This document shows, in pieces, positions 2,785 through 19,877 of a stretch of 20,421 nucleotides of DNA. Positions within the stretch are counted from its first letter, which is position 1. Each line of letters starts with the position of its first letter. Position numbers and translations under genes: made by a program. Below the pieces are notes generated by a model. That model worked only from the letters and a program-made list of their open reading frames with translations, did no database searches and was not told the DNA's origin. The stretch is from a virus: IMG/VR virus record IMGVR_UViG_3300034118_001975, positions 1 to 20,421 of that record; one strand, written 5' to 3'.

Positions 2785-5700
2785 TTACGAGTTACCCAAG
2801 ATTTCGACAAGTTGACCGCCGATTTTGAAGGCCACTATGCGCTGGACATACCATGGATCTGTGTCATTCAGGGCATTTTGCAGAGTGATGGTATTGGCAT
2901 CGACTTCGATGATGGTGCTAAAGTGAATGGGTGCGCGATTTACGCCGCCACTTGGGTTAGCGTACGCTCTGATGGTTTTTCCGTTGACATCAATTGTGCA
3001 AGCGTCACCACTACTGACGCTGTTGGCCAAAGTTCCTTGAATACTGACATACCAAATACCGTTCTGGATGTTACCGCCAAGATCAGTTTGACTATCCCAT
3101 GGCCCAATACCGGTAGTACCAAGCAGGCCATTGGGACCGGTAGCCTGGTGTTCGATTTTGTAGACTGCATCAACGTAATACTTGTTGGCTGCCTGATCGT
3201 CGGCAGTTGGTACTTTCAAACCAGCAACGGTACCAATCTTGGTAGTTGGGGTACTGGAATTGTAGAATGTGAGTGTTGGAGTAGGACGACCTGAAACAGA
3301 GTCACTACCAGAAATCAAAACTTCGCTCTGGCGAGGATTGACTGCGAGTGTGACCGAAGTATGACCGGTCAGATTGCCGCCCGAGCCACTCAGGCCGTCA
3401 CCATACACAAACAAATCGCCATATACTGTAGTCTGGCACTTGCTGTTGACCGTGCCATTGTTTTGCTGGTAGCCGCTGTTGATGATTGTTGTTGGGGTGC
3501 GCGAAAGAGCTAGGGCATCGTGTTTGACATTCCACGAATTTGACGATCCTACGTACTTGACCGTCTTGTCTGCCGTATCGGCATAGTATTTGTTGGAGGC
3601 GTAGTCGTCTGAAGATGGGCTAGTCAACCCAAAGATATATCCGATAGCAGGCCCGCCGCTGATGCCGTTGCGGAATTCCAGCGAAGGGTTGGGGCGAGTC
3701 AGTGTCTGTGCCGAGCCTGTTCCGCCAATTACTACGATGCGGCTTTGGTGAGTGCGAACAAAGAACGTCTCGCCAGTGTGTTGGCTGGTAGCCCCGATGG
3801 TGGTCAAACCGTTGGCGAATACCGAGAAATCTCCGCGAACGTGCGCTTCGGTCTTGGCTTCGTTGATTCTCGGAGTTGGGTCAGCAAAAACCGTGAATAC
3901 GGTTTCGTCTGCTCCCAATACTACCCCATCAACAATGACATTGAAACCATTGGGTACATCTTCGGAATATGGTGCCGTAGCAGCCAAAGCAATGGTGAAA
4001 TTTCCGTCCAATGGGTGATAACTATCGTCGTGATTGTGGCCTGTTAGGATGGTGGCATACGTGGTTGCCTTTGCACGAATGATGTAGTGAGCGACCAAAT
4101 ATGGCGTGTGAGTATCGAGCGGATCGCCGATACCCGAATCGCCCGTTGGACCAATACCGGTCACAACAGTCTGTGAACCGGTGGCGAGATCTGCATTAAC
4201 CGTTGTTAGGTTGTGCAAGTGGGCTGGCATCGAACTACCATCAATCGTGACAGTTTCCGATCCCCCAAAATCTGAAATTTCGTACAGATCCAATCCGACG
4301 TTTGTGTAGTCCGACGATCCGGTACTACCACCCAAAATACTTCTGGTTCTCAGGTCCGGAACAAAGAAGATTTGTTCGCCGCTGCTATTTTCATCGGCAA
4401 TGATTCGGTGTGTACCTGCCCCGCACGCAATAGATGCTGAGAAGGTCACAATACCGCTTGTGCTATCTGCGCTATCTACCGTCGCGGCATATGCCGTTGC
4501 TCCTCCGATAGGCGTGATAGTAACAGTGTCACCCGCTTCAAGATTGCGAGTTCCTCCGACCATCGTGCCGGTTGTGCCCGATGCGGTGAAAGTTATTCGA
4601 CCCTCGTAACTATCACCGATGGTGTTGTACAGTTCTGGATAATCGATAGCGCGATATCTATCACCGTCGCATAGTAGCCATTCGGATGGTAGATTGCTCA
4701 GACTTCCGGCGTATGCCTGAATAGTACCAACGGGAACCAAGCCCGACAAGTACACCTCATCTGTTGGTTCCGGAACTTGTGAACCGGAGTGATTTAGAAC
4801 ATAACCGTGTGTTGCGCTCAGTGCAATCAGCATGGGCTTTCGCACTTGGCCGACTGCAATTCGAGTTGCCGTGGCATAATCTGGATCGTAGATGAATTTA
4901 CCGGCATGTGATGCACTGGCACCAAGAAAATACACATTTCCAGCCGTAAACCCAACTCCCTCTACAGTCATGAGTGGGCCAGACAATCCGGTGATGCGAC
5001 CTTGGTGAGTGACCGTAAACTCGTTTGCAGAGTGAACCGTGCTGACGATGCCGATCGTTTCCGCCAATTCGGGAGTGGTGGCCAGAGCAGCCGTAAATCC
5101 TGCACTGGCATCATATCGAACAGCCAATCCGGCAGTCAGACCGTGACCGGCTTGTGTATATCTTCTCCGAACCGAATCCGCATTGACGAAATCTGGATCA
5201 ATTTTACCGTAAGCATCGGCTACCGGAATGGTGTAGGCTGCCGATGATGTAGCGGCGTGGGCACCGTCAAGCATATCAACATTGAGTTTTCTGGCAAAGT
5301 TGTATGCGGTGATACCGGCGTAAGTTACCCCGCTTGCACCCGGAGCAATAACAAAGCTTTCGCTCATTGAGCTAATGCCAGTGCTTCCAACTGACACACT
5401 CAAATAGTTATTGGACGAGCCTCTACTGAATTTCCAAGATCCTCCCGTAAAGGTCAATGGAGCGACAGAACTCAGTGTCTCGGCTAGGTAGATATCTGTA
5501 TTTTTTGTGCTTTCACCAGTAAAGATGAATTCGGAGTTAGATACCCCATCGTATCCGTATGAGCGATATACTCTGGAAATGATGGCATTGGTGTTGCCAG
5601 TGACACCCAGGTTGCTTGCGCTCATCCAACCATCATAGTATGCGCCGCTGTCGTTGTCGGTCCAGATCCACAAAAGGCTTTTGTCGCCTTCCGAGCCTTT

Positions 5701-6618
5701 GAGAACGATACCACCCTCATCTAGCGAGGCATTGCCAAGAAACGAGTTGGTTACACCAGCATTTGTGTTGAAGAGGTAGCGAGGTGCGCCCGTAGGACTA
5801 AAGCTGATATAGCCAGTCGCTCCAACATCTTCGGCACCATATGGATCTTGAAACAAACTACCAAACCACATCTGGGCGGTGGGTCCACCAGCCGCTCCTG
5901 TGTAGCTTTGCACGTGGCCATAAAATGCCGGTGTCAATCCGGTCGATGCGGTGAAGTAGTATGCGGTCGGTCCGTTTGCGGCAAAGAAGGTGCCACCTGT
6001 TACGCCGGTCAATCCCAGAATGGCGGCCTGTTGATAGCCCAGTTCAATTTGCTTGTCTTCGATTCTCAGATTGTTGCTGGCGATGAAATCGGTATCGCCC
6101 ATGGTGCTAAGGCTGCCCATGATTACGACGTTACCACTGATCGTTAGACTATCCATGACCAATTCGGGAGGCAGCATGTGACGCGCCTGCACCTTTTTGG
6201 CTGTTCCACTGGCACTTGTAGTTGTGTCGCTTACGTCATTGATGATCAATTCGTCACTGGCAGCAACACGCGTGGCCGACCCGCTTGCGCCGGTACCAGA
6301 CAATGCTCGATTGTAATCGTCAAACAATTGAAAATCGACAATTGCTCTTGATTGTCCGCCAATCGTCTCGTATCCAATGCCGGGTCCGGGATTCAATCCA
6401 ATAGTGATGACACCATTGTAGTTTCCCGCGTCCTCGCCCGTGTATTTGACAAGACCGGCTCCCGATTCGGAGGTTGTGCTACCAACTCCGACGTCTACAT
6501 CATAAACCTGAAGAGGATTGATGCTGTCAACGATTTGGTTTGTTCTGTTCAACCACGTATTGAAGGTATCGGTCAATACAAGTGGGTTGAGACTGATTAG
6601 ATCGCCGGTTGTTGGCAT
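2785..6618 (-). CDS. Giant tail fibre / baseplate fibre with collar domain, 1277 aa
   Basis: This is the largest gene in the window. The N-terminus (MPTTGDLISLNPLVLTDTF, then NQIVDSINPLQVYDVDVG) is a probable attachment domain. Residues up to about 600 are beta-rich and Gly/Thr/Ser-rich, as in fibre shafts. Around residues 625-850 there is a phage tail-collar domain (T4 gp12 short-fibre type): VPVGTIQAYAG, EWLLCDGDRYRAIDYPELY, VPDLRTRSILG, MPAHLHNL and THTPYLVAHYIIRA. Two degenerate repeats follow, FGLTSPSSDDYASNKYYAD and AGLKVPTADDQAANKYYVD, of the kind seen in fibre distal regions. It is therefore probably a trimeric adhesin. A Shine-Dalgarno AGGA lies about 9 bases before ATG 6616-6618, and a CTAAATA late motif is 24 bases upstream. 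The collar is in the middle, not at the C-terminus as in gp12. Host receptor unknown. Confidence 0.88.
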   Translation of the reverse strand: MPTTGDLISLNPLVLTDTFNTWLNRTNQIVDSINPLQVYDVDVGVGSTTSESGAGLVKYTGEDAGNYNGVITIGLNPGPGIGYETIGGQSRAIVDFQLFDDYNRALSGTGASGSATRVAASDELIINDVSDTTTSASGTAKKVQARHMLPPELVMDSLTISGNVVIMGSLSTMGDTDFIASNNLRIEDKQIELGYQQAAILGLTGVTGGTFFAANGPTAYYFTASTGLTPAFYGHVQSYTGAAGGPTAQMWFGSLFQDPYGAEDVGATGYISFSPTGAPRYLFNTNAGVTNSFLGNASLDEGGIVLKGSEGDKSLLWIWTDNDSGAYYDGWMSASNLGVTGNTNAIISRVYRSYGYDGVSNSEFIFTGESTKNTDIYLAETLSSVAPLTFTGGSWKFSRGSSNNYLSVSVGSTGISSMSESFVIAPGASGVTYAGITAYNFARKLNVDMLDGAHAATSSAAYTIPVADAYGKIDPDFVNADSVRRRYTQAGHGLTAGLAVRYDASAGFTAALATTPELAETIGIVSTVHSANEFTVTHQGRITGLSGPLMTVEGVGFTAGNVYFLGASASHAGKFIYDPDYATATRIAVGQVRKPMLIALSATHGYVLNHSGSQVPEPTDEVYLSGLVPVGTIQAYAGSLSNLPSEWLLCDGDRYRAIDYPELYNTIGDSYEGRITFTASGTTGTMVGGTRNLEAGDTVTITPIGGATAYAATVDSADSTSGIVTFSASIACGAGTHRIIADENSSGEQIFFVPDLRTRSILGGSTGSSDYTNVGLDLYEISDFGGSETVTIDGSSMPAHLHNLTTVNADLATGSQTVVTGIGPTGDSGIGDPLDTHTPYLVAHYIIRAKATTYATILTGHNHDDSYHPLDGNFTIALAATAPYSEDVPNGFNVIVDGVVLGADETVFTVFADPTPRINEAKTEAHVRGDFSVFANGLTTIGATSQHTGETFFVRTHQSRIVVIGGTGSAQTLTRPNPSLEFRNGISGGPAIGYIFGLTSPSSDDYASNKYYADTADKTVKYVGSSNSWNVKHDALALSRTPTTIINSGYQQNNGTVNSKCQTTVYGDLFVYGDGLSGSGGNLTGHTSVTLAVNPRQSEVLISGSDSVSGRPTPTLTFYNSSTPTTKIGTVAGLKVPTADDQAANKYYVDAVYKIEHQATGPNGLLGTTGIGPWDSQTDLGGNIQNGIWYVSIQGTLANSVSSGDACTIDVNGKTIRAYANPSGGVNRAPIHFSTIIEVDANTITLQNALNDTDPWYVQRIVAFKIGGQLVEILGNS

Positions 6619-13469: not shown

Positions 13470-14177
13470 ATGACATTACCACAGATTGAAGTCCCGACAT
13501 ACCAGATGCGCCTAATCAGTACAGGCGTAACAGTCAACTACCGCCCCTTTTTGGTCAAAGAGAAGAAAATCTTGATGATTGCCGCCGAGAGCAAGAGTCA
13601 CACTGCGGCATACAACAGCATCAAGCAAATCGTCTCAAATTGCACCTTTGGTAAAGTCAACGCCGAGCAAATAGCTCTCTTTGATCTTCTCAATCTCTAC
13701 CTAAAAATCCGCAGCAAATCCATCGGTGAAACTGCCGACTTCAAATTTCCGTGCCCACATTGCAAGCACATGATTTCGTCGTCTATCGACTTTGAGAATA
13801 TCAATGTCGTGGTACCTCCCGAGCACAACAAAAATGTCAAACTCGATTCCAAGAGTGGCATTATGATGAAGTACCCCAACATCGAGATTGATAAACTCCT
13901 GAATAGTTCGGATGCGAGAAAAGAAGATCTCGACGTCGATATCGTCATGCAATGCATCGATTACGTGTACGACGGGAATGACATTACGTACGCCAAAGAT
14001 ATCGATCAACAGCAACTCAAGGTATTCATCGAAAGCCTGACCGAACAGAATTACAACAAACTCATCGACTATTTCAAGCATCTACCCAAGCTAGAATACC
14101 CCATCGAAATGAATTGCAAGGGGTGCGGCAAACAAGAGAAGCTAACCGTGAATGATTTGTTTGGTTTTTTCGCCTAA
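13470..14177 (+). CDS. 26: Baseplate hub / tail assembly chaperone gp26
   Basis: The 235-aa protein starts MTLPQIEVPTYQMRLISTG and has VNYRPFLVKEKKILMIAAES at about 22-41, the hallmark of the T4 gp26 family (T4 gp26 is 208 aa). Two CxxC pairs (C95/C98 in CPHCKH, and C216/C219 in CKGCGK) look like a split zinc site. In T4, gp26 is needed for hub assembly. Its place immediately before a probable tape-measure gene suggests it acts as a tail assembly chaperone, like lambda gpG. GGAAG lies 8 bases before the ATG. The 3' end contains a T TTT TTC slippery sequence at codons 233-234. A hairpin overlaps the stop, allowing a -1 shift into a 60-codon extension. Confidence 0.9.
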   Translation: MTLPQIEVPTYQMRLISTGVTVNYRPFLVKEKKILMIAAESKSHTAAYNSIKQIVSNCTFGKVNAEQIALFDLLNLYLKIRSKSIGETADFKFPCPHCKHMISSSIDFENINVVVPPEHNKNVKLDSKSGIMMKYPNIEIDKLLNSSDARKEDLDVDIVMQCIDYVYDGNDITYAKDIDQQQLKVFIESLTEQNYNKLIDYFKHLPKLEYPIEMNCKGCGKQEKLTVNDLFGFFA

Positions 14178-14235
14178 GCTGCATCGATGAAGATTTGTTG
14201 GGGTATTACAAACTCAATTTCAAATTGATGCAGCT
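14165..14235 (+). promoter_or_regulatory. Predicted -1 programmed ribosomal frameshift signal
   Basis: The slippery heptamer T TTT TTC (14165-14171) is in the correct phase for gp26 codons TTT-TTC. It is followed by a 5-nt spacer and a 9-bp perfect stem: AGCTGCATC (14177-14185) pairs with GATGCAGCT (14227-14235). Three further pairs (G-U, A-U, U-A) extend the stem inward. The large loop contains an inner 5-bp stem, TTTGT (14194-14198) with ACAAA (14208-14212). In the -1 frame a TGA at 14153 closes the window upstream, and the 0-frame stop is at 14175, so the shift must happen in about 20 bases that contain this heptamer. Confidence 0.82.
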
Positions 14236-14353
14236 AAGCAAGTACAGTCTGACAGAACTAGAAAATATGTTGCCATGGGAGAGAGAAATCTATATTTTGC
14301 TGCTCCAAGAACACATCGACGAAGAAAACAAGAAACTGGCAAGACACGAGTAA
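14171..14353 (+). CDS. 51: gp51-like tail, -1 frame extension of gp26 (60 codons)
   Basis: After a -1 slip at codon 234 of gp26, translation continues RLSCIDEDLLGYYKLNFKLM, then QLSKYSLTELENMLPWEREI, and ends at TAA 14351-14353. The fusion would be 294 aa. The pattern YY.LNF.L....YS..ELE.MLPWEREIY resembles, from memory, T4-like gp51 and the C-terminal parts of tail assembly chaperones that bind tape measures. No good separate start exists. ATG 14228 would give only 41 residues and drop the YYKLNF part; it also lies inside the hairpin stem. TTG 14195 has no ribosome site. In T4, gp26 and gp51 are separate genes. The predicted partner is the tape-measure protein encoded 6 bases downstream. Real coding is strongly supported by composition; the mode of expression is inferred. 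Confidence 0.78.
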   Translation, partial: RLSCIDEDLLGYYKLNFKLMQLSKYSLTELENMLPWEREIYILLLQEHIDEENKKLARHE

Positions 14354-14359
14354 CCCACC

Positions 14360-15883
14360 ATGGCCGAAGGTAAATGCAGTAGTTGCGTACTAGACAAGTT
14401 GCAAAAATTCGTCGATAGCGAACGACGCCCATCCTCTAGATCTGGGGAAGTATATCAGTCTCTGGCAGGAATGGGGCTATTTTCTCCATCGAGAGACGAA
14501 AGCAAATCGTCTTTGGGAGTGGTTGTTCCAGAATCCCCACTGGCAGGCGAGCCTCGCGAATCGGGGTTGCCTATGGGAACTTTCACCAAAGAAATGGTCA
14601 AGACCATTGCGTCGATGCATCGAGAACTGGCTGCCGTTAACAAAACTGTGACCGTCTCGACGGCTACCATGGTTCGTAGTATTGATTCTATGACTGCTGC
14701 CGTGGTGCAGAGTCGCCGAAACGGACAAGCAACCGACTTGATGGTTCGCGCGGCACCAGGGCGGGTATCAAATGCTCCAACCACCATCAGCGAAATCCAA
14801 TCTCTGTCTCGACCGTCAATTACTCAGACGGCCCCGGTTGCCGCCGAGCAATCCAGAAACGACGTCATTGCCGACTCGATCAATGTGAACGAATTGGTAG
14901 GAATTCAAGAAAAACAAAGTGACACCCTAGAACAAATTCAAACGGGTCTATATGGCATTTCGATGGGCGTCGATAGTATGACCGATCGACTTCGTGGAAT
15001 CGAGAAAAAATTCGAAACCATGAACGATGTGCTTGCCAGTCGCGAGGCAGCAAGGGAGGCCGAGCGGGGAGAGGGGGCCAACTCGACACCAAAGCCAGTG
15101 GATGCTCAAGCAAAAGATACTGGTGGTGGATTGCTTTCGTCTATGTTGCGGGGGTTGGGTGGCGTCATTGCCGGGCTGACACCAAGTCTCAAGACTCTTC
15201 AGTCTATGATCGGGACCTTGAGCGGCAGTGTTACCAGTCTTTTGGTGCCGCTTGGAAAGGCTATAGGCGGGTTTGTTACCATGGGTGGATTGGCCACAGC
15301 CGGTACCCTTGCGGCTATCGGTGCCGGTCTTGGGGTAATCGCATACGAGATTTACATCGCCGCCAAGTGGATTGCCGAAACCAAAAAACTGAATAGTGAT
15401 AGAACTCTGGAAACCGATCGTCAAGAGCAGCAACTTTCTGGTGCCAAGGATATCTTCCAGACACGCATTGACACAGATCGCAGTAATGGCCTAGAGCCAG
15501 CACCGCGAGACGAGCAGTACGTCAGTCAATTTGATATCATGCAAGAACAAAATGAGTTGGAAAAAATCAAGGAACGCCGAAATGGCCTAATGGAAGCAGC
15601 CACGCAATCAGCCGGAGTTGGTGCCGGTGCAAATTTGATGCTGTTGGAAAACGTCAGGATACTGGATCAGAAGATCTACAGAAAAGTTTGGACGAAAAGA
15701 AGACTCGCTTTCAGGAAAAACGCGAGCAGATTACTACCGACCAAATTGAATTTGTTAAGCCACCCGAGAAGCAGTTTTCGACCCGTGAGGATGCACCATA
15801 CTCTGGTTTTGATGCACAGCAAAGATCCGAAATCACCAACATCGGGCAAGCTTTGGTTCCGGTCAAAGCTGATCGATCTATGA
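14360..15883 (+). CDS. 29: Probable tail tape-measure protein (gp29-like), frame broken near 3' end
   Basis: The intact part (to about residue 432) has a CSSC motif at residues 6-9, a Ser/Pro-rich head and helical or coiled-coil stretches (KEMVKTIASMHRELAAVNKT; EKQSDTLEQIQTGLYGI). A Gly/Ala/Leu-rich hydrophobic region lies at about 260-335, with segments such as GLATAGTLAAIGAGLGVIAY, followed by charged helix. Helical rods with internal hydrophobic segments are typical of tape measures, which set tail length and interact with the membrane. It directly follows the chaperone pair, the usual place. After about 15662 the frame turns into Arg/Leu/Ser-rich junk (RRLAFRKNASRLLPTKLNLL) up to the stop at 15883, while the -1 frame becomes protein-like. 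Adding one base would give about 564 aa, close to T4 gp29 (590). Sequencing error or real mutation cannot be told apart. Confidence 0.72.
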   Translation: MAEGKCSSCVLDKLQKFVDSERRPSSRSGEVYQSLAGMGLFSPSRDESKSSLGVVVPESPLAGEPRESGLPMGTFTKEMVKTIASMHRELAAVNKTVTVSTATMVRSIDSMTAAVVQSRRNGQATDLMVRAAPGRVSNAPTTISEIQSLSRPSITQTAPVAAEQSRNDVIADSINVNELVGIQEKQSDTLEQIQTGLYGISMGVDSMTDRLRGIEKKFETMNDVLASREAAREAERGEGANSTPKPVDAQAKDTGGGLLSSMLRGLGGVIAGLTPSLKTLQSMIGTLSGSVTSLLVPLGKAIGGFVTMGGLATAGTLAAIGAGLGVIAYEIYIAAKWIAETKKLNSDRTLETDRQEQQLSGAKDIFQTRIDTDRSNGLEPAPRDEQYVSQFDIMQEQNELEKIKERRNGLMEAATQSAGVGAGANLMLLENVRILDQKIYRKVWTKRRLAFRKNASRLLPTKLNLLSHPRSSFRPVRMHHTLVLMHSKDPKSPTSGKLWFRSKLIDL

Positions 15884-16053
15884 TCGAAGGAAGTCTGACC
15901 AAAAATCACCAGACCAAGCTGGCAAGAGAAAACAAATGGCCTCAGCCTATTGTTTTGCCAGCGCAAAACACAAATGTGGTCGATCAATCTTCTACAAACT
16001 ACATGTTGTCAACGAGATACTATAGACCATTTGATATGGATGTTCGTCCATAA
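15688..16053 (+). CDS. C-terminal part of the tape-measure gene, in the -1 frame
   Basis: This frame encodes a natural-looking C-terminus: SLDEKKTRFQEKREQITTDQ, a Pro/Lys stretch, and the end YMLSTRYYRPFDMDVRP. It is open upstream of the TTG at 15688 (SEDLQK), and that TTG has no ribosome site, so it is almost surely the end of the gene at 14360 and not a separate gene. The transition must lie around 15640-15665, where both frames are open. The TAA stop at 16051-16053 is followed at once by a strong hairpin terminator, as expected for the true end of the operon. Confidence 0.75.
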   Translation: MDEKKTRFQEKREQITTDQIEFVKPPEKQFSTREDAPYSGFDAQQRSEITNIGQALVPVKADRSMIEGSLTKNHQTKLARENKWPQPIVLPAQNTNVVDQSSTNYMLSTRYYRPFDMDVRP

Positions 16054-18889: not shown

Positions 18890-19813
18890 TCAGGGTGTCA
18901 GGATTTTGGTGCAATACTCAACGATGGCCAGATCTTTGTTCTTGAATTCCATGTCAACGTCGAACGATTTGCCGTAGGTGTCAAAGGGAGTGCCATAGGG
19001 CATGGAAGCATGGGCTCGTTTGTTTTTGTTGCCGGGATCCGATTGCGCGTAGTGGAATAGAGGGCGAACGCCGTCTGGCCATGTGGAATAGGCACACTCG
19101 AATGCATCTCTCTCGCTCATTGTACCGGGATTGCACTGGTGGTGCAGATAGTCAAAAGTGATGGGAATTCCCGTGCGTTGGTGAATGTATTTATACAACG
19201 CTTCGACCGTCCAGATTCCCTTGTCCTCGTTTTCGAGAACAAGGCGGCTGCGAACAACCGGAGAAAGTCGATTCCAATTTCGAACAAACCGATCGGCGAT
19301 TTCTGCATGTGTGCCACGAGAACAATTCATGTGAATGTTCATGGGACTATTGTAGTTGGATTCTGCTCCAAACATTGTCATGATTCGGGCTTCATGTTCC
19401 AACTGATATTGGGTACGAATGCAAACCGCACCGTTCTCGCTTGCCAGTACGTTAAACTGGTCGGGATGGCAACTGATGCGCAAACCTTCGGAAACGAGTT
19501 TCTTGAGTCTTCCGGCAGCAACATCTAGAGCATTGCCACTGACACGAACAATGTCGTCCATGCCAAAATCGAGTCCATCGATAGTGACAACTGGAACCAT
19601 ATTGCTACCTACGCGATACACCCATTTATTGAGATCGCAAATTTCGCCCAGGTCAGAAGTGACATTGAAATTGCGAATGGCGATTTGAGAAATCTTGAAC
19701 ATGGTCGTGGCCAGCCCACATTCAGACCGCAATTTTAGATACTGCTTGCGGGTCATGGTCTTGTGAGACCCACCATCGGATAGTTTACAACACAGGCCAT
19801 ATCGCATATTCAT
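18890..19813 (-). CDS. uvdE: UV damage endonuclease UvdE
   Basis: The protein has the UVDE TIM-barrel motifs in order: YGLCCKL near the N-terminus (lesion-probing Tyr), ISCHPDQFNVLAS, NIHMNCSRG, LVLENEDKGIWT, ITFDYLHHQCNPG, FHYAQS, RAHASMPYG and DVDMEFKNKDLAI. These supply the His/Glu/Asp cluster that binds three metals. UVDE nicks 5' of UV photoproducts and starts alternative excision repair. I chose ATG 19811-19813 (307 aa). The longer frame from 19867 would start inside the upstream terminator hairpin, and its extra residues do not fit the family. ATG 19805-19807 is equally possible. No strong ribosome site is visible. T4 uses the unrelated DenV glycosylase for the same task. It lies at the head of the repair and replication operon. 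Confidence 0.92.
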   Translation of the reverse strand: MNMRYGLCCKLSDGGSHKTMTRKQYLKLRSECGLATTMFKISQIAIRNFNVTSDLGEICDLNKWVYRVGSNMVPVVTIDGLDFGMDDIVRVSGNALDVAAGRLKKLVSEGLRISCHPDQFNVLASENGAVCIRTQYQLEHEARIMTMFGAESNYNSPMNIHMNCSRGTHAEIADRFVRNWNRLSPVVRSRLVLENEDKGIWTVEALYKYIHQRTGIPITFDYLHHQCNPGTMSERDAFECAYSTWPDGVRPLFHYAQSDPGNKNKRAHASMPYGTPFDTYGKSFDVDMEFKNKDLAIVEYCTKILTP

Positions 19814-19857
19814 GGTATATTGTATGCCACGAGTCGATCTATTCCCAAAAGAAACAA

Positions 19858-19877
19858 CCCAGGCCATTGGGCCTGGG
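19858..19877 (-). terminator. Rho-independent terminator
   Basis: CCCAGGCC (19858-19865) pairs with GGCCTGGG (19870-19877) around a 4-base loop. On the minus strand the hairpin is followed by TTGTTTCTTTT, a U-rich tail. It lies 15 bases after the stop of the upstream small gene and before uvdE, so it separates the two units. Confidence 0.82.

Follow-up and report, generated by a model that had tools for sequence, protein, structure and literature searches.

The locus behind gene 26 of this T4-type phage raises the question of how a gp51-type protein sequence can be expressed from codons that lie in the -1 frame relative to gp26. The window, that is, the whole stretch of DNA that was analysed, measures 20.4 kb and comes from a T4-type phage that has not been cultured. 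The locus very probably yields, from one mRNA, two forms of one tail assembly chaperone by means of a -1 shift, and comparison with relatives gives strong support to programmed -1 frameshifting as the link between gp26 and a gp51-type tail. Within this explanation, we infer the slippage, its efficiency, the ratio of the two forms and the chaperone mechanism. The elements of the gp26–gp51 junction are as follows.

13470–14177, + strand: gp26-like gene, short form, 235 aa (PF12322 T4_baseplate / phrog_150)
14153–14155, + strand: TGA closing the -1 frame upstream of the slip (read from the sequence)
14165–14171, + strand: slippery heptamer T TTT TTC, in phase with gp26 codons 233–234 and kept in 115 of 120 lineages
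14172–14176, + strand: 5-nt spacer, GCC plus the first two bases of the gp26 stop TAA
14171–14353, + strand: gp51-type tail in the -1 frame, RLSCID...LARHE, 60 aa (first codon CGC 14171–14173, stop TAA 14351–14353)

The upstream gene is a near full-length member of its family: residues 9–235 match PF12322 (9.6e-50, 169.7 bits, with a curated cut-off of 24.5), and profile search gives phrog_150 at 1.1e-53. The AlphaFold2 model of the protein has a pLDDT of 92.4, and zinc-ribbon-like parts (CxxC) are found in it.

At the 3' end of the gene, codon 233 is TTT (14166–14168) and codon 234 is TTC (14169–14171), with a T before them at 14165 and with GCC and the gp26 stop TAA (14175–14177) after the heptamer. 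The run has the X XXY YYZ form in the gp26 phase and lies in the overlap of the two frames, between TGA 14153 and TAA 14175. Since the -1 frame is shut by TGA 14153, the shift is confined to about 20 nt. Reading after the shift gives RLSCIDEDLLGYYKLNF...LARHE, in which residues 6–57 match phrog_634 (gp51, baseplate hub assembly catalyst) at 2.8e-21, and the predicted shifted product comprises 234 + 60 = 294 aa. When the window is compared in the -1 frame with its nearest relative, L004, the differences by codon position number 15, 9 and 27, the pattern of a coding frame. A previous sequence-only reading of this DNA had proposed a heptamer in exact gp26 phase at codons 233–234, an upstream closure of the -1 frame leaving about 20 bases for the shift, 60 gp51-like residues in that frame and a 294-aa product; the coordinates, the TGA at 14153–14155 and the family match agree with it on every count.

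Under the proposed mechanism, the majority of ribosomes would terminate at TAA 14175 and release the 235-aa short form, gp26. A minority, paused by a stem 5 nt downstream, would slip by -1 on T TTT TTC, where both tRNA-Phe could re-pair with TTT, and these slipped ribosomes would go on to make the 294-aa long form with the gp51 tail, which is predicted from T4-type gp51 to consist of three helices. If the two forms act as lambda G and GT do, the short one would form a coat on the tape measure protein, and the less abundant long one would bring in tail tube subunits through its tail. Natural fusions of the same parts in one frame are found in T4 gp51 and in Vibrio pv27.

The conservation of the slip site was analysed in gp26 loci gathered from named phages, viral contigs and genome contigs, with lineages defined as gp26 proteins below 80% amino acid identity (120 lineages; 114 complete tails). 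In 115/120 lineages, the final 40 nt of gp26 contain T TTT TTN in phase, and the remaining parts of these genes have the in-phase run at only 19 of 26,785 codons. If the protein is kept constant and each gene's own codon usage is applied, a T-ending codon followed by TTT in all 115 has a log10 probability of -48.8 if the lineages are independent; they share ancestry, so the true probability is less extreme than 10^-48.8. This choice among synonymous codons indicates conservation of the heptamer beyond coding need. Chance, or conservation of the Phe-Phe pair alone, is ruled out by the heptamer counts together with the codon-choice test. The heptamer-bearing phages include Vibrio phage KVP40 and phages of Synechococcus, Prochlorococcus, Pelagibacter, Stenotrophomonas, Caulobacter, Sinorhizobium, Agrobacterium, Rhizobium, Desulfovibrio, Variovorax and Aeromonas. 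Pieces of T4-type phages bearing the cassette were also encountered in bacterial and archaeal assemblies (L134–L157; binned as Euryarchaeota, Heimdallarchaeota, Flavobacteriales and others), and these are probably contaminating phage contigs.

The stem that would pause the ribosome is formed by two arms.

14177–14188, + strand: 5' arm of a 12-bp stem, AGCTGCATCGAT (fold; enrichment across relatives)
14224–14235, + strand: 3' arm of the 12-bp stem, ATTGATGCAGCT (fold; inside the conserved LMQ codons of the tail)

The stem begins 5 nt after the heptamer, within the 5–9 nt range of a stimulatory structure, and comprises 12 bp including one G-U, the first nine being Watson-Crick pairs; a 5-nt spacer and a perfect 9-bp stem extendable to 12 had been proposed for this position and were found so. 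The fold of the window junction has a z of -2.63 over 91 nt, and of -5.35 over the 60 nt past the spacer when dinucleotide shuffles are used as the reference. Across the relatives, the same 60 nt show a mean z of -1.21 vs -0.49 in a gp26-internal control, with values below -2 at 31/114 junctions vs 13/114 controls (dinucleotide shuffles). A synonymous-codon control gives a similar result, with a junction mean of -1.30 vs -0.41 for a control stretch of the tail (p 4e-6) and -2.46 for the window. The stem is favoured across relatives, yet it is not universal, a strong one being found in around a quarter of them. The comparison of related junctions bore out a shared slip site (115/120) and, for a shared stem, found a strong one in only 31/114. 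The 3' arm of both the window and L004 reads ATGCAGC, from the codons of the conserved LMQ, and the 5' arm codes for LSCI, off the common protein sequence (IALSH in most lineages). A 5' arm unlike the common protein, paired with codons of a conserved one, suggests that the pairing is under selection.

The organization of T4 itself is different. T4 gp26 and gp51 had been taken as separate genes, and two genes they are; gp51, however, is not merely the tail. Residues 1–201 of the 249-aa T4 gp51 match PF12322 (3.9e-52), as T4 gp26 does (8.8e-64), and its C-terminal end matches the gp51 tail. T4 gp51 is a second copy of gp26, a paralogue, carrying the tail in frame, so T4 has short and long forms through gene duplication. 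In the predicted structure of T4-type gp51 (pLDDT 87.8), strands and helices follow the order of the window gp26 and are followed by three helices. Vibrio phage pv27 has a tandem of a short gene (L123:890-1540) and a long gp26-plus-tail gene (L123:1543-2232), possibly an intermediate toward the arrangement in T4, whose gp26 is encoded on the opposite strand. T4-type phages would then have two routes to the two forms, either frameshifting or two paralogous genes, with the window phage and most of its relatives using one gene and the shift. T4 would be a clean case in which gene duplication took the place of a frameshift, or the reverse.

T4 gp26 and gp51 are listed as hub assembly chaperones, gp51 being required but absent from the particle (PMC3004832). 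The identification of the tail assembly chaperones of T4-like phages is attributed to Vladimirov, Gautam and Davidson (2022, Virology 566:9-15) in two papers that cite it, PMC10885494 and PMC12846349. According to the first, some T4-like phages have one short and one fused longer gene instead of frameshifting; according to the second, short-form genes of T4-like phages are known to contain poly-T sequences for a -1 slip. On our reading, the genes meant are gp26 and gp51, given the exact match to the pattern described here. As conveyed by these citing papers, the T4-like chaperones have short and long forms, a poly-T slip and two-gene variants with a fusion. On our reading, the arrangement seen here is thus known in outline since 2022, and the chaperone suggestion of the previous sequence-only reading had been published by then. 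Compared with that set through the same papers, the window represents one more uncultured phage of the T4 type, and its local stem is strong. Other papers citing the 2022 work hold nothing further on T4-type phages. Relative to the work as known through its citations, the additions here are the scale, the codon-choice and synonymous controls, the stem in its clade, the variant of Ackermannviridae and the pv27 tandem.

The sequence of the window provides for a short form and a predicted long form with a common N-terminal part, and the next gene downstream recalls the order of lambda.

14360–16053, + strand: probable tape measure gene (ORF 14360–15883, then 15688–16053), on its position and a 641-aa single-ORF counterpart in L004

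The frame of this gene changes near 15650, its second ORF (15688–16053) being in the -1 frame. The L004 counterpart is intact (3890–5815, 641 aa), so an indel near 15650 in the window contig is likely. A profile search found no family match for the downstream gene in the window or in L004. The next long gene is annotated as tape measure in Cr30 and phiM12; for the Cr30 product, the best match is a tail lysin, and a tape measure family is matched weakly (phrog_794, 1.5e-7). The downstream gene is a probable tape measure, on position, length and the Cr30 and phiM12 annotations. The lambda-like order of G/GT followed by H, as claimed from the sequence, is retained on those grounds, although without a family match. 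In lambda, likewise, the short form and the minor long form precede the tape measure. The lambda slip heptamer is GGGAAAG, and that of the window is T TTT TTC. The -1 frameshifted tail genes were reportedly surveyed by Xu, Hendrix and Duda in 2004.

The parallel with lambda could also be convergent: the frameshift would be real, and gp26 and gp26-51 would be a baseplate hub assembly factor without descent from the lambda G/GT chaperones. This is unlikely, although it is the strongest of the alternatives. No sequence similarity between lambda G/GT and gp26 was found, and gp26 is larger and has zinc-ribbon-like motifs, which are not known in lambda G. Sequence search found no solved structure related to gp26. 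In Foldseek searches of solved structures, known chaperones are not significant; for the gp26 model, the HK97 gp13 chaperone 2ob9 is reached at a non-significant E of 2.2 (probability 0.41, rmsd 2.9 over 55 columns), and for the T4-type gp51 model no chaperone appeared. Against convergence, 2ob9 and the related 3fgx (probability 0.20) are among the best Foldseek probabilities for the gp26 model, which gives a weak indication that gp26 shares its fold with lambda G or HK97 gp13. Two further lambda-like features, the position directly before the tape measure and the short/long logic, also argue for chaperones, as does the published work on tail assembly chaperones to which PMC10885494 and PMC12846349 refer. 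The proposal that the pair is the T4-type counterpart of G/GT is supported by its arrangement and by that published work, the fold match (2ob9, E 2.2) being weak.

Two-form chaperones are found outside these phages. In PMC12846349, tail assembly chaperones are described for phage Adele (Vandenendeviridae/Andersonviridae), from other phage families. In Bacillus phage 0305phi8-36, orf143/144 form a two-gene short/long chaperone without frameshift (PMC2147016), like T4 gp26/gp51; its lineage is unrelated, and the window phage uses one gene.

The tail could, alternatively, be a separate small gene 51 with its own start (e.g., TTG 14195), translationally coupled to gp26, the T-run being kept only through Phe-Phe. 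Databases do annotate gp51 on its own, and in four lineages (L022, L027, L028, L120) an ATG overlaps the gp26 stop. This is very improbable. In every heptamer-bearing lineage the tail is in the -1 frame relative to gp26, and its conservation begins at the first residues after the slip, so that in most lineages the first usable start comes only after a conserved part of the tail. An ATG is absent from the first 12 codons in 87 of 114 complete tails, and ATG, GTG and TTG are all absent in 64; the first ATG in most tails is the conserved Met of the core 'NFALMQHH'. Moreover, the protein does not require a T before TTT, or TTT rather than TTC, but 115/120 lineages keep both, and in T4 the tail is fused to a gp26 copy. 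That gp26–gp51 is instead one normal gene broken in the T-run by an indel, through sequencing error or mutation, is barely credible: T-runs are error prone and there is the likely indel elsewhere in the window, in the downstream gene near 15650, but every heptamer-bearing relative examined shows this frame relation, and many of them are isolated phages that were sequenced separately, which rules out sequencing error as the cause of the frame break.

Evidence from about 120 lineages supports the view that T4-type phages have one tail-building protein, with gp26 as its short and gp51 as its long form. This offers an explanation for a long-standing puzzle, that T4 gp51 is essential but missing from the particle. 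In cyanophages and related phages, hundreds of records list gp51 separately, often starting within the conserved part, and could be corrected.

Some junctions depart from the common pattern. In Ackermannviridae (L025, L116–L119) the tail is in the -1 frame, and a conserved NTT TTC ATT TAA replaces the heptamer; in Kuttervirus and Taipeivirus, none of ATG, GTG and TTG precedes the conserved core of the tail. Vibrio D510 (L026) has the tail in the -1 frame and CTT TTC AAG TAATG, without a T TTT TTN heptamer, and contig L153 has G TTT TTT. A slip on N NTT TTC is of the type of T7 gene 10. Ackermannviridae, D510 and L153 may use such a slip, or, in D510, a restart. If the Ackermannviridae slip differs, the motif has been exchanged and the frame relation kept. 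In the four lineages whose ATG overlaps the gp26 stop (TGATG/TAATG), the heptamer is also present, so that a free tail is possible besides the fusion. Taken jointly, it is doubtful both that some lineages make three products (short form, shifted long form and a free tail from the stop-overlapping ATG) and, separately, that Ackermannviridae slip on N NTT TTC at the same place.

Two further genes of the window were noted, both on the - strand. A collagen-like repeat protein (539–1825; PF01391, 3.8e-34) is probably a tail fibre or appendage, and an endonuclease-like gene (18890–19867; phrog_8420, 8.3e-37) adjoins T4-type replication and late-transcription genes.
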